Below, piece after piece: positions 27,955 through 31,574 of a DNA stretch of 64,000 nucleotides. The translations under genes were made by a program, and so were the position numbers. The notes beneath the pieces are model-generated. The model saw only the letters and a program-made list of their open reading frames with translations. It did not search any database and was not told the DNA's origin. Each line of letters starts with the position of its first letter. Positions within the stretch are counted from its first letter, which is position 1. This DNA comes from a virus, in the IMG/VR virus record IMGVR_UViG_3300012582_000005, positions 126,001 to 190,000 of that record; one strand, 5' to 3'.

Positions 27955-29412
27955 ATGAAAGCAGAAATTAAAATTTATATAACTACCACCCTTCCATATG
28001 TGAACTCAGTTCCACATATAGGACATTCCTTGGAAATGATACAGGGAGATTTTATTGCTAGATATTTGAAATTAAAATATAAGGACGTACAATTCAATAC
28101 TGGTGTTGATGAAAATGGACTTAAAGTATATACAACATCCGTAGAGAAAGGTATTGATACACAGGTACATTGTGATTATTTAACTAAAATATGGCAAGAA
28201 TTTTTACATAAATTTCATATTAAACCAGATACATTTTGGAGAACTACTAGTGAAATTCATAAGGTAGGCGTTTTAAAAGCTTGGGAAAAGTGTTTAAAAA
28301 ATGGTGATATTTATGAAAAAGAGTATTCGGGTATTTATTGTTTAGGATGTGAATCATTTAAAACTACTAAAGATTTAGTAGATAATAAATGTCCAGATCA
28401 TCCTCATTTAGAGCCTAAAGAAATTAAGGAAAATAATTACTTCTTTAGATTATCTAAATACAAAGAATATCTTCTCGAATGGCTTGATAAAAATCCAGAG
28501 TTTTTAACGCCTAAGTCTAAAACTGAGGAATTGAGAAACCTTATTTTGAATGTGGAGGACATCTCCATATCAAGACTTAAAACATCTGTACCATGGGGTA
28601 TCACTGTTCCTAATGATAGTGAACAAAATATTTATGTGTGGTTTGAAGCACTACAAAATTATTTTATTTCAACTGGTTATGATACTGAGAGATGGGAAAA
28701 TTCTATACAAATATGTGGAAGTGATAATTTAAGATTTCAAGGTGTTATATTACAAGGGATACTTAAAAGTTTGGGTTTAGCACAAACTAAAAAATTATTA
28801 GTACACGGCACAGTATTAGATAACAATGGTGTAAAGATGTCAAAATCTATTGGTAATGTAATTGATCCAATATCACAATTAGATAAATATGGATTATCTG
28901 CTGTAAGATTTTATACTCTTGGCGCGCTACCAACTTATTCAAATTGTAATTGGTCAGAAGCAGATTTAGTATCTTTTTACAACGCACATTTGGCTAATAA
29001 TTTAGGAAATCTTATTAATAGAGTAATTACTATTTTATTAAAAAATATTGATATCGATGAATTAAGAAATTTATCTTGGATTAAGATATACCATGATAAT
29101 GCTTTTCCTGATTTCAATAATGAAGTTAAAGAAGCTTTAAATAGAATTGAGGAATATTTGTCTAAATATGAAATAAGAAGTGCTGTAGAAGAGCTCAATA
29201 GTATTAGTACATATTTAAATAAGTACATAACATCAAAAGAACCTTGGAAAAAAGAACGTGAAGAATGTATAGGAATTTTATCGAATTTATATTGGGGACT
29301 TTCTAAAATACTACCTTATTATAAATTAATTCTTCCCGATAAAGAAGAAATTATTGACAAAGTATTTCACAACTTTGAGAAAGAAATTATATTTCCAAGA
29401 ATTGAAAAATAA
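27955..29412 (+). CDS. metG: methionyl-tRNA synthetase (phage-encoded)
   Basis: 485 aa. The class I signatures are exact: HIGH at residues 21-24 and KMSKS at ~294-298, with the MetRS start YITTTLPYVNSVPHIGHS and a GVDENG motif. A zinc-knuckle-like CLGCESFK...NKCPDH insertion is present near residues 123-143. The anticodon-binding helical domain follows (NLGNLINR onward). The C-terminal EMAP-like tRNA-binding domain of longer bacterial MetRS is absent, as in monomeric forms. It charges tRNA-Met, supplying both initiation and elongation. No tRNA-Met gene is present in this window, so it must act on host tRNA or on one elsewhere in the phage genome. Confidence 0.92.
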   Translation: MKAEIKIYITTTLPYVNSVPHIGHSLEMIQGDFIARYLKLKYKDVQFNTGVDENGLKVYTTSVEKGIDTQVHCDYLTKIWQEFLHKFHIKPDTFWRTTSEIHKVGVLKAWEKCLKNGDIYEKEYSGIYCLGCESFKTTKDLVDNKCPDHPHLEPKEIKENNYFFRLSKYKEYLLEWLDKNPEFLTPKSKTEELRNLILNVEDISISRLKTSVPWGITVPNDSEQNIYVWFEALQNYFISTGYDTERWENSIQICGSDNLRFQGVILQGILKSLGLAQTKKLLVHGTVLDNNGVKMSKSIGNVIDPISQLDKYGLSAVRFYTLGALPTYSNCNWSEADLVSFYNAHLANNLGNLINRVITILLKNIDIDELRNLSWIKIYHDNAFPDFNNEVKEALNRIEEYLSKYEIRSAVEELNSISTYLNKYITSKEPWKKEREECIGILSNLYWGLSKILPYYKLILPDKEEIIDKVFHNFEKEIIFPRIEK

Positions 29413-29756: not shown

Positions 29757-29834
29757 ATTAATTAGAAAAAAATATCTAAAGAGGAAAACATTTCTACAAT
29801 ATATACGTTTAATAAGATAGAAACTTAAATTAAA

Positions 29835-29939
29835 ATGAAAACAGTTAACACAAATATCGCAATAGTTGAAATAGCCGTGATAGGGGGCGCAGAGGAAGGC
29901 GTTATGGGTGTATATTGTTTAAATTCTAAGACAAGTTAA
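29835..29939 (+). CDS. 34-codon leader peptide of the tRNA cluster (candidate attenuator)
   Basis: ATG at 29835, TAA at 29937-29939, preceded by an A-rich stretch like other starts here. Residues 8-26 read IAIVEIAVIGGAEEGVMGV: 18 of 19 are Ile, Ala, Val, Glu or Gly. These are exactly the five amino acids of the six tRNAs downstream (Glu, Ala, Ile, Val, Gly, Glu). Three of four Ile codons are ATA, which the phage tRNA-Ile(TAT) would read, and GTG, GCC, GGG and GGC occur although the phage is AT-rich. Codons 24-29 form the left arm of a 16-bp stem that competes with the terminator at 29973-29998. I infer a regulatory leader; a stable protein product is unlikely. Confidence 0.65.
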   Translation: MKTVNTNIAIVEIAVIGGAEEGVMGVYCLNSKTS

Positions 29940-29976
29940 TGTAAAAAGAATAAACTAAACAAACAATATACACCCA
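29905..29976 (+). promoter_or_regulatory. antiterminator-like stem, 16 bp
   Basis: TGGGTGTATATTGTTT (29905-29920) and AAACAATATACACCCA (29961-29976) are perfectly complementary, with a 40-base loop containing the leader ORF's stop codon. The last four bases of the right arm (CCCA, 29973-29976) are also the first bases of the terminator's left arm, so the two structures exclude each other. Confidence 0.75.
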
Positions 29977-29998
29977 AAGCCAAAAGCTTTGGGTTTTT
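29973..29998 (+). terminator. attenuator terminator upstream of the tRNA genes
   Basis: CCCAAAGC (29973-29980), loop CAAAA, GCTTTGGG (29986-29993), then TTTTTTG. It is 11 bases before the first tRNA, so it would block the whole cluster unless prevented from folding. Confidence 0.8.
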
Positions 29999-30008
29999 TG
30001 TTTTATAT

Positions 30009-30079
30009 GTTCCTATAGTGTAGTGGTAGCACAAAATCCTTTCAAGATTTTAGGTCGATTTCAAATATCGATAGGAATA
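30009..30079 (+). tRNA. tRNA-Glu(TTC), copy 1
   Basis: 71 nt. Acceptor GTTCCTA/TAGGAAT (G1-U72), D stem GTGT/GCAC, anticodon stem AAATC/GATTT with loop CTTTCAA, T stem TCGAT/ATCGA with loop TTCAAAT. No encoded CCA. Confidence 0.88.
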
Positions 30080-30088
30080 CTAATAATG

Positions 30089-30161
30089 GGGGCAATGTTG
30101 TAATTGGTTAACATTGGATACTTGCAATATTCAGATTTCGGATCGTACCCGAATTGCTCCA
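30089..30161 (+). tRNA. tRNA-Ala(TGC)
   Basis: 73 nt. Acceptor GGGGCAA/TTGCTCC with one G-U, D stem TTGT/ACAT with a T-T mismatch in the first pair, anticodon stem GGATA/TATTC with loop CTTGCAA, T stem TTCGG/CCGAA. The T loop ATCGTAC departs from TTCRANY. No CCA encoded. Confidence 0.8.
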
Positions 30162-30167
30162 CAAAAT

Positions 30168-30238
30168 ACGCTTATAGTGTAATGGTAACACTGTTGTCTT
30201 ATATACAACCATACTTGGTTCAATTCCAAGTAAGCGTA
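30168..30238 (+). tRNA. tRNA-Ile(TAT), reads AUA
   Basis: 71 nt. Acceptor ACGCTTA/TAAGCGT, D stem GTGT/ACAC, anticodon stem GTTGT/ACAAC with loop CTTATAT, T stem CTTGG/CCAAG with loop TTCAATT. A UAU anticodon decodes AUA directly, useful for this AT-rich phage, whereas most bacteria use a lysidine-modified CAU tRNA. Confidence 0.85.
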
Positions 30239-30248
30239 CAATATTTAT

Positions 30249-30326
30249 TGTCGTGTAGCTTAGTGGCGAAAGCACTACTTTTACATAGTAGCATTTACAT
30301 CAGGGGTTCGAGTCCCTTCACGACTA
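30249..30326 (+). tRNA. tRNA-Val(TAC) with enlarged variable region
   Basis: About 78 nt. Acceptor (T)GTCGTG/CACGAC(T), with positions 1 and 72 unpaired T-T; D stem GCTT/AAGC, anticodon stem CTACT/AGTAG with loop TTTACAT, T stem AGGGG/CCCTT with loop TTCGAGT. The variable region is 10 nt (CATTTACATC) instead of the usual 4-5. Confidence 0.78.
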
Positions 30327-30327
30327 C

Positions 30328-30439
30328 AATTAGGTTGCCCTGCTTATTCCGTATGGGGCTATAAAGTTAGAATCAATTAACGGAGTCCATGATGGTAGCA
30401 CTACCGAAGAAAGTGTAGAGATTCTAATACAACCTAATT
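30328..30439 (+). ncRNA. structured RNA of about 112 nt within the tRNA cluster
   Basis: The ends AATTAGGTTG (30328-30337) and CAACCTAATT (30430-30439) pair perfectly over 10 bp. Inside, TTAGAATC (30367-30374) pairs with GATTCTAA (30420-30427) over 8 bp. GGTA/TACC (30394-30397, 30402-30405) forms a small hairpin, CCC/GGG a 5' hairpin, and TTCCG (30347-30351) can pair with CGGAG (30381-30385) as a pseudoknot. There is no T arm or anticodon arm, so it is not a tRNA. It lies between tRNA-Val and tRNA-Gly, 1-2 nt from each, and is presumably released by tRNA processing. T4 has comparable stable RNAs of unknown role in its tRNA cluster. Confidence 0.65.
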
Positions 30440-30440
30440 T

Positions 30441-30512
30441 GCGATAGTAGCTCAAAGGTAGAGCATCTGTTTTCCAAACAGAGGGTTGAGATTTCGAAAT
30501 TCTCCTATCGCT
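30441..30512 (+). tRNA. tRNA-Gly(TCC)
   Basis: 72 nt. Acceptor GCGATAG/CTATCGC, D stem GCTC/GAGC, anticodon stem TCTGT/ACAGA with loop TTTCCAA, T arm GAGAT/TTCTC with loop TTCGAAA. No CCA encoded. Confidence 0.9.
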
Positions 30513-30539
30513 CAATTAATTTAATGTAATATAGCTCAT

Positions 30540-30725
30540 ATGAATAACGAAGATAAAAATGAAATCCTTAATACTTTTAAATGGATAAAAGTAAAAAAGT
30601 TCAAAGATGATGAAACTAAAACGTGGGAAGAGAGATACAAAGACTTGGAAAAACATCACGTAGAAGAAACTCAATTTTTGATTGATAAAATTAGAGAAAT
30701 TATTAAAAATGCTCCTATAGTGTAA
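30540..30725 (+). CDS. small charged protein, 61 aa, overlapping tRNA-Glu
   Basis: An ORF between two tRNA genes with a strongly charged, helical sequence (TWEERYKDLEKHHVEETQFL). No recognised family, but the amphipathic spacing looks like real coding. Its last five codons and stop lie in the first 15 bases of the downstream tRNA-Glu, so tRNA processing would cut the mRNA at its 3' end. Confidence 0.55.
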   Translation: MNNEDKNEILNTFKWIKVKKFKDDETKTWEERYKDLEKHHVEETQFLIDKIREIIKNAPIV

Positions 30726-30784
30726 TTGGCTAACATATCGCTTTTTCACAGCGAGGACTACGGGTTCAATCCCCGTTGGGAGTA
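30711..30784 (+). tRNA. tRNA-Glu(TTC), copy 2
   Basis: 74 nt. Acceptor GCTCCTA/TGGGAGT (G1-U72 and one more wobble), D stem GTGT/ACAT, anticodon stem TCGCT/AGCGA with loop TTTTCAC, T stem ACGGG/CCCGT with loop TTCAATC. Same anticodon as copy 1 but different stems, so not a recent duplicate. Confidence 0.85.
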
Positions 30785-30896
30785 CTAAAAATATAAACAT
30801 ATTATGAAATCAATTTTTAAAACAATTCATCTTGGGGAAACCCTACTATTAAATTAATAATAGGAAATTGAAGTTATACAAAAAAAAAAAGAAAAC

Positions 30897-31574
30897 ATGA
30901 AAAATTTATATAATAAAAACAGCTTAGTATTTTGGACACAAGAAGAAATTAAATTAAGAAGAATGTTTGAAGATTATTTCTCAGAAAATATTTACTCTTT
31001 TTTAAAGATTATGAATCCTGCATTTGAATTTATTCAAGTAGAGGCTTCACAATTGACACCAATAGAATTAATAAACAAAAATTACACTAAAGAAGATGTA
31101 TATTTTGTTGATGATGAATTAGCATTACGACCAGAAACTACAATGGGTTCTTTCTTATATGCACAAGATTTATTGAATTCACATAATGACAGAAAAGTAA
31201 GATTACCATTATGTGTATGGCAACACGGTAAGAGTTTTAGAAATGAACAAGATAAAACTCAATCAAATATGAGATTGAAAGAATTTTATCAACTGGAATT
31301 TCAAATAATTTATTCAAAAACTACATCAAATGATTATTATAGTAAGATAGTTCCTTACATTAATAATTTAATAAATAATATGATTGATAAATCTTTTATT
31401 GAGCAGTCGGATAGATTACCTGATTATTCTGAAATAACCACTGATATTATTATTGAATCTAATAAAATGGAAGTATGTAGTATTTCAAAAAGAAAAGATT
31501 TTGAAAATGCTAATGTTGTAGAGATAGCCATAGGTACAGATAGATGCGTTTACAATTTTATGAATAAAAAATAG
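30897..31574 (+). CDS. minimal class II aminoacyl-tRNA synthetase core, GlyRS-like
   Basis: 225 aa, against about 450-600 for a full GlyRS. LRPETT at residues ~77-82 matches the GlyRS LRPETAQG block. Motif 2 is GKSFRNEQDK...MRLKEFYQLEFQ (residues ~111-136; GlyRS has GKSFRNE...LRVREF-x-x-AE). Motif 3 is VVEIAIGTDR near the C-terminus. There is no anticodon-binding domain. It could charge the phage tRNA-Gly, or glycylate or adenylate another acceptor, as domain-lacking synthetase paralogues do. ProRS-like assignment is the main alternative, but the LRPE and FRNE contexts favour GlyRS. It begins 112 bases after the last tRNA. Confidence 0.7.
   Translation: MKNLYNKNSLVFWTQEEIKLRRMFEDYFSENIYSFLKIMNPAFEFIQVEASQLTPIELINKNYTKEDVYFVDDELALRPETTMGSFLYAQDLLNSHNDRKVRLPLCVWQHGKSFRNEQDKTQSNMRLKEFYQLEFQIIYSKTTSNDYYSKIVPYINNLINNMIDKSFIEQSDRLPDYSEITTDIIIESNKMEVCSISKRKDFENANVVEIAIGTDRCVYNFMNKK

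Follow-up and report, generated by a model that had tools for sequence, protein, structure and literature searches.

The short leader ORF ahead of a six-gene tRNA cluster in the window (the whole 64,000-nucleotide stretch of virus DNA analysed here) is very probably, judging from its sequence, a ribosome-mediated transcription attenuator of the trp/his type, which would monitor how much charged Glu, Ala, Ile, Val, and Gly tRNA is available and control the cluster behind it. The window is part of a 288,572-base virus record; over 25 kb, its sequence is the same as that of LR756504.1, a 636,363-base uncultured phage genome. Phages of 634, 636, 642, and 735 kb are the largest complete ones, belong to the Mahaphage clade, and have predicted Bacteroidetes hosts (Al-Shayeb et al. 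2020, PMC7162821). These four genomes are designated here W01 (LR745206, 634 kb), W02 (LR756504, 636 kb), W03 (LR756502, 642 kb), and W05 (LR756501, 735 kb). Most of their tRNA clusters display the same order of leader ORF, terminator, and tRNAs.

The leader and tRNA genes of the window

The locus comprises the following features.

29783-29819, + strand: probable promoter or 5' leader motif GGAAAACATTTCTACAATATATACGTTTAATAAGATA, shared with other W02 leaders
29835-29939, + strand: leader peptide ORF of 34 codons, MKTVNTNIAIVEIAVIGGAEEGVMGVYCLNSKTS
29856-29912, + strand: regulatory codon block (codons 8-26)
29905-29920, + strand: antiterminator arm 2 (inverted repeat), within leader codons 24-29
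29961-29976, + strand: antiterminator arm 3 (inverted repeat), overlapping the terminator 5' arm
29972-29994, + strand: intrinsic terminator hairpin, 9 bp with a 5-nt loop
29995-30005, + strand: terminator U-tract
30009-30080, + strand: tRNA-Glu(ttc)
30089-30162, + strand: tRNA-Ala(tgc)
30168-30239, + strand: tRNA-Ile(tat)
30249-30327, + strand: tRNA-Val(tac)
30441-30513, + strand: tRNA-Gly(tcc)
30711-30785, + strand: tRNA-Glu(ttc), second copy
30897-31574, + strand: short glycyl-tRNA-synthetase-like class II catalytic domain, 225 aa (Pfam PF00587, 1.3e-9)

The ORF reported in the first-pass annotation is present, and 18 of the 19 residues from 8 to 26 are indeed Ile, Ala, Val, Glu, or Gly. 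These five amino acids together make up 30.7% of the residues in the long ORFs of the phage, so that the probability of at least 18/19 for this fixed set is 7.8e-9, before a modest correction for the choice of the start point; the earlier judgement that such a run is unlikely by chance is thus upheld. The six tRNAs (Glu, Ala, Ile, Val, Gly, and Glu) were found at 30009-30785, and the perfect 16-bp inverted repeat formed by arms 2 and 3 was recovered as described. The terminator lies ahead of the first tRNA, as had been proposed, with TTTTTTGTTTT directly 3' of its stem and the tRNA starting 14 nt past it. The overlap between the two helices had been limited to CCCA, and this part did not stand: once weak pairs on its flanks are counted, the antiterminator helix can span the whole terminator 5' arm (overlap 9/9), and the fold predicted for this leader with arm 2 free contains no terminator.

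In the proposed mechanism, a shortage of Glu, Ala, Ile, Val, and Gly tRNAs in their charged form would stall the ribosome at about codons 8-19, leaving arm 2 free to pair with arm 3; this pairing would block the terminator and let the polymerase read into the tRNA genes. Under fluent translation, the ribosome would run over arm 2 while the terminator is being synthesized, the terminator would form, and transcription would end ~10 nt before the first tRNA. From this arrangement we infer that the ORF is translated and that control runs in this direction, with anticodon nucleases or an ill-matched host tRNA pool as the putative physiological trigger. Since arm 2 of the window ends ~17 nt upstream of the stop codon, its coverage by a ribosome at the stop would be only partial.

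The motif upstream of the leader recurs, as ..AAAACATTT..ATATATACGTTATAATA, ahead of the W02 leaders at 309669 and 401993, and partly at 135606. Several W01 and W03 leaders have a TTTG..TAnnTTTG-like pattern upstream, which resembles Bacteroidota promoters; the AT-rich motif common to the W02 leaders is unlike it. The tRNA cluster is flanked by MetRS (27955-29412) and by the GlyRS-like domain, which matches the NCBIfam glycine--tRNA ligase model at 1.5e-16, far below the family cut-off. This gene is possibly co-transcribed with the cluster; its W01 homologue is found downstream of an Ile/Gly leader, and jumbo phages of Caulobacter and Brevundimonas encode relatives of the 225-aa domain. Between tRNA-Val and tRNA-Gly, a gap of 112 nt (30328-30439) is closed by a perfect 10-bp inverted repeat (AATTAGGTTG/CAACCTAATT) and contains an 8-bp repeat. 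This stretch has no match in Rfam (fold z -1.6) and is possibly an unusual small RNA or an aberrant tRNA.

Leader modules ahead of tRNA clusters in related phages

Close relatives of the window locus itself were sought by several routes. A tblastn search of the phage collection with the window leader peptide matched only LR756504, IMG/VR scans via MetRS, AspRS, and ThrRS returned none, and the scan via the GlyRS-like protein returned two contigs, both without modules. An exact search with the stem arm gave 68 IMG/VR matches, judged to be about chance level for a 15-mer. W01, W03, and W05 were used instead, together with IMG/VR contigs reached through GlnRS.

A scan blind to amino-acid identity was applied to the four genomes. 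It required a terminator stem of at least 7 bp, arm complementarity, a tRNA within 800 nt, and an ORF starting with ATG and ending 44-76 nt before the terminator end. It yielded 27 modules, in which an ORF of 16-42 codons is enriched in the amino acids that the tRNAs behind it carry and an arm in its last codons pairs with the terminator 5' arm. The 27 leaders hold 343 cognate residues out of 728; reassigning leaders to clusters at random gives 145 +/- 17, and 0 of 300,000 permutations reach 343. The W01 and W02 subset has 161 (62 +/- 13 by permutation), and 17 more modules on eight of the IMG/VR contigs have 159 against 98 +/- 13 (0/200,000). Not all of these leaders are independent events, because those of W01 and W03 and those of the IMG/VR contigs are partly orthologous. 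The signal is frame-specific across the 27 leaders, with 47% cognate residues in the ORF frame versus 21% and 14% in the other two. The expectation that leader composition would track the tRNA set in relatives is therefore strongly supported, in four complete huge phages and in IMG/VR contigs. Codon-to-anticodon matching is weak (37/58 readable versus 29 expected, p 0.015).

The correspondence can be read off individual W01 and W02 leaders. Leader MKAMILSLCLSLSLSLQKLG.. precedes Leu/Ser/Cys tRNAs, ..FWHFHF.. His/Phe tRNAs, ..IIKKKKRD.. four Lys tRNAs, MKTIAMIIRMRIIRP.. Arg/Ile/Met tRNAs, MTTTQQIQQQQINQTD three Gln tRNAs, and ..SKSSSRSSS.. Arg/Ser tRNAs. A leader stands upstream of 31/38 ARAGORN tRNAs in W02, 50/59 in W01, 43/46 in W03, and 53/59 in W05. 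Control tRNA regions from LR756508, Sinorhizobium phage Phosso, and Lak-A1 were devoid of tRNA-linked modules, with the exception of a single poor match in Phosso. Beyond what the first-pass annotation claimed for one locus, the module occurs in many copies, is nested in places, and is also found ahead of aminoacyl-tRNA synthetase (aaRS) genes. With at least 27 of these modules spread over four related huge phages, much of their complement of tRNA and aaRS genes would be regulated by demand, and the tRNAs left over in several operons would be covered by a second leader located further downstream.

In the largest clusters (L286, L290, W01 387700, and W03 401158), the leaders hold nearly all the amino acids of the 12-19 tRNAs behind them, and L290 carries a second leader, MRNRNLNMNLLNLM.., ahead of its last five tRNAs (Leu, Met, Arg). 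On the minus strand of W02 (401993-398664), three serial leaders each cover their downstream genes: DKQYQPQYD before Asp and the rest, KKQQYKQYQPQYK before (Pro) Tyr Tyr Gln, and KKKK before Lys.

Leaders in W02 and W03 contain Trp or Pro residues for which ARAGORN gives no matching tRNA, and the clusters behind them were therefore inspected for missed genes. Three tRNA-like genes missed by ARAGORN were found, with anticodons read by eye from the folds. In W02, one has the loop ATTGGAA (anticodon TGG, Pro), with an 8-bp anticodon stem and a score of only 29 bits; another, a putative gene, has the loop CTCCAAA (CCA, Trp). The third, in W03, has a CCA anticodon (Trp) and scored only against the tRNA-Sec model, below the cut-off. 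The leader residues predicted these candidate tRNA-Trp (W02 and W03) and tRNA-Pro (W02) genes.

Geometry and RNA folding of the proposed switch

Even when complementarity between arm 2 and the terminator is left out of the selection, all 27 terminators with an in-register ORF show it, versus 52% in shuffles (combined p 1e-17). In 26 of the 27 modules, the stop codon lies 48-65 nt from the end of the terminator. For a codon metaprofile, the antiterminator arm was located by complementarity alone. The cognate fraction is 0.84 at codons -9 to -7 relative to arm 2 and 0.81 at -6 to -4, then 0.47 at -3 to -1 and 0.21 inside the arm, where 0.20 is expected. This peak appears to sit where a stalled ribosome would just leave arm 2 free. 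Stem covariation in relatives, another earlier expectation, was found in a single ortholog pair and there involves all three strands: between the His/Phe leaders W01 342380 and W03 372930, GTTCGG/CCGAAC/GTTCGG has become ATTCGA/TCGAAT/ATTCGA.

Partition-function folds were computed on the RNA free downstream of the ribosome, up to the terminator loop, the terminator 3' arm being absent. When the A site lies 5-9 codons ahead of arm 2, antiterminator pairing amounts to 0.99, whereas a ribosome that has reached the stop leaves it at 0.00; as the arms were picked for complementarity, these absolute values are flattering, and it is their dependence on position that counts. Pairing is lost at codons -4 to -1, which coincides with the end of the cognate block. 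This co-transcriptional scheme was adopted because full-length equilibrium folding fails to separate stalled and fluent states for most modules: with a stalled ribosome, the terminator is still favoured in most of them (mean P 0.83), and the switch would therefore usually have to be kinetic. The window is an exception whose equilibrium fold switches, with P(terminator) of 0.01 when stalled and 1.0 at the stop. A 1:2 protector hairpin was sought; none is conserved, and upstream complementarity to arm 2 is no better than in shuffles. In our view, this protector or pause hairpin, present in trp, does not define the attenuator class.

Read directly from the DNA are the parts, their co-occurrence, the frame specificity, the composition match, the geometry, and the covariation of one pair. 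The attenuator hallmarks among them are a short leader ORF, cognate enrichment, a terminator, an exclusive antiterminator, and codon placement, the last being clear in the metaprofile and co-transcriptional folds and less clear in full-length equilibrium folds. Composition, covariation in one pair, and cognate codons placed to free the antiterminator arm together support the attenuator reading proposed at the outset.

Synthetase genes, other readings, and known attenuators

Module-linked protein genes without nearby tRNAs were identified with NCBIfam and Pfam. They include an aspartate--tRNA(Asn) ligase (leaders ..NDD.. and ..KDD..), IleRS (..IIII..), AsnRS (..NNRN..), a ValRS-like protein (VVVNVSV), and a HisRS-like protein, whose leader has one H only. 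A PheS-related ligase (SrmL) and, in W02, elongation factor G belong to the same group. Mixed operons also occur, with a Gln leader ahead of three tRNA-Gln and GlnRS, and a Thr/Asn/Arg leader ahead of tRNA-Thr and ThrRS. On the IMG/VR contigs L284 and L288, leaders VVVV, NNNNHN, and QQLQQQ precede ORFs interpreted as ValRS, AsnRS, and GlnRS; for ValRS and AsnRS, only the start of the sequence was used. Per-leader cognate enrichment in the aaRS modules varies, with p between 4.5e-6 (Gln) and 0.17 (Asp), and is weak for the HisRS and AspRS leaders. On the minus strand of W02 (68058-65765), a phage elongation factor G gene has a module, MKTVLKFIIKTIIVSRYDRVYID, 40 nt ahead.

Several other readings of these modules can be considered. 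The terminators might be the 3' ends of small protein genes, the leaders ordinary or accidental low-complexity ORFs, and the tRNAs transcribed by read-through. Short ORFs followed by terminators are common in these AT-rich genomes, and 330 such combinations (stem of at least 9) lie away from tRNAs. However, composition follows the downstream tRNA set in the 27 leaders (0/300,000) and in the IMG/VR contigs, cognate codons are placed relative to arm 2, the gap between terminator and first tRNA often leaves almost no room for a promoter, and Lak-A1, of similar GC, has no tRNA-associated module; this explanation is thus very improbable. We give equally little credence to a leader acting as a specific nascent-chain arrest peptide, as in TnaC or ErmCL, or to an RNA binding uncharged tRNA directly, as in a T-box. 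Both are known means of controlling a terminator or a downstream gene, but the leaders vary widely between clusters, track composition, and share no fixed motif. Rfam detects no riboswitch in the window, and no T-box either in the window at the gathering threshold or around the locus at E<=5.

A more serious contender accepts attenuation and differs on what is sensed, namely mainly amino-acid or aminoacylation status (general starvation) rather than tRNA loss, the tRNA genes belonging to a wider translation regulon. It accounts for the same modules ahead of aaRS genes and the EF-G gene, and a stall reports charged tRNA whatever the cause. Yet the five convincing W05 modules are all ahead of tRNA clusters and, on general reasoning, an extra tRNA would leave an amino-acid shortage unrelieved; this reading is possible but rather unlikely. 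A broader interpretation, which we consider fairly probable, is that in the largest phages genome-wide, partly nested multi-amino-acid attenuators meter each tRNA or aaRS operon by demand, so that the phage replaces just those tRNAs that become limiting in infection (e.g., after host anticodon-nuclease attack), with leader composition predicting hidden tRNA genes and aaRS specificity.

The modules resemble the trp, his, thr, ilv, and leu attenuators in their short leader with regulatory codons, their mutually exclusive antiterminator and terminator, and the position of the latter before the first gene. They differ in the genes that they would control, which are phage tRNA clusters, in carrying codons for up to about eight amino acids, and in occurring several times per genome, sometimes nested, with no 1:2 protector hairpin detected. 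T-box riboswitches likewise control terminators of translation genes by charged-tRNA status, but they bind uncharged tRNA directly and need no translated leader. In bacteria, leader-peptide attenuators of amino-acid operons and aaRS genes are established, the latter including pheST in gamma-proteobacteria, and trpS and leuS in Streptomyces (PMC1262725). The phage GlnRS, IleRS, ValRS-like, and AsnRS modules similarly use codons of the synthetase's amino acid, although they reside in phages and are shared with tRNA genes. The main text of Al-Shayeb et al. 2020 (PMC7162821) contains neither "attenuat" nor "terminator", and the full-text literature searched, mostly without subscription papers or preprints, holds no account of phage tRNA clusters controlled in this way.

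If the leaders work as read here, huge phages would gauge how much the ribosome needs each tRNA set and respond operon by operon, a feedback of which the literature searched has no description for phages or tRNA clusters. Such a feedback would bear on why phages carry tRNAs and on how they set the amounts. The leaders would also serve as a readable label of the amino acids served by each operon. On the minus strand of W01 (LR745206, 615030-613818), the "mystery ligase" SrmL (NF051887, 6.7e-127), a PheS-related ligase, is preceded by leader MNTNTTFNFFFSHKMV with the motif FNFFF, which suggests, if the leader rule holds, that SrmL is tied to phenylalanine.
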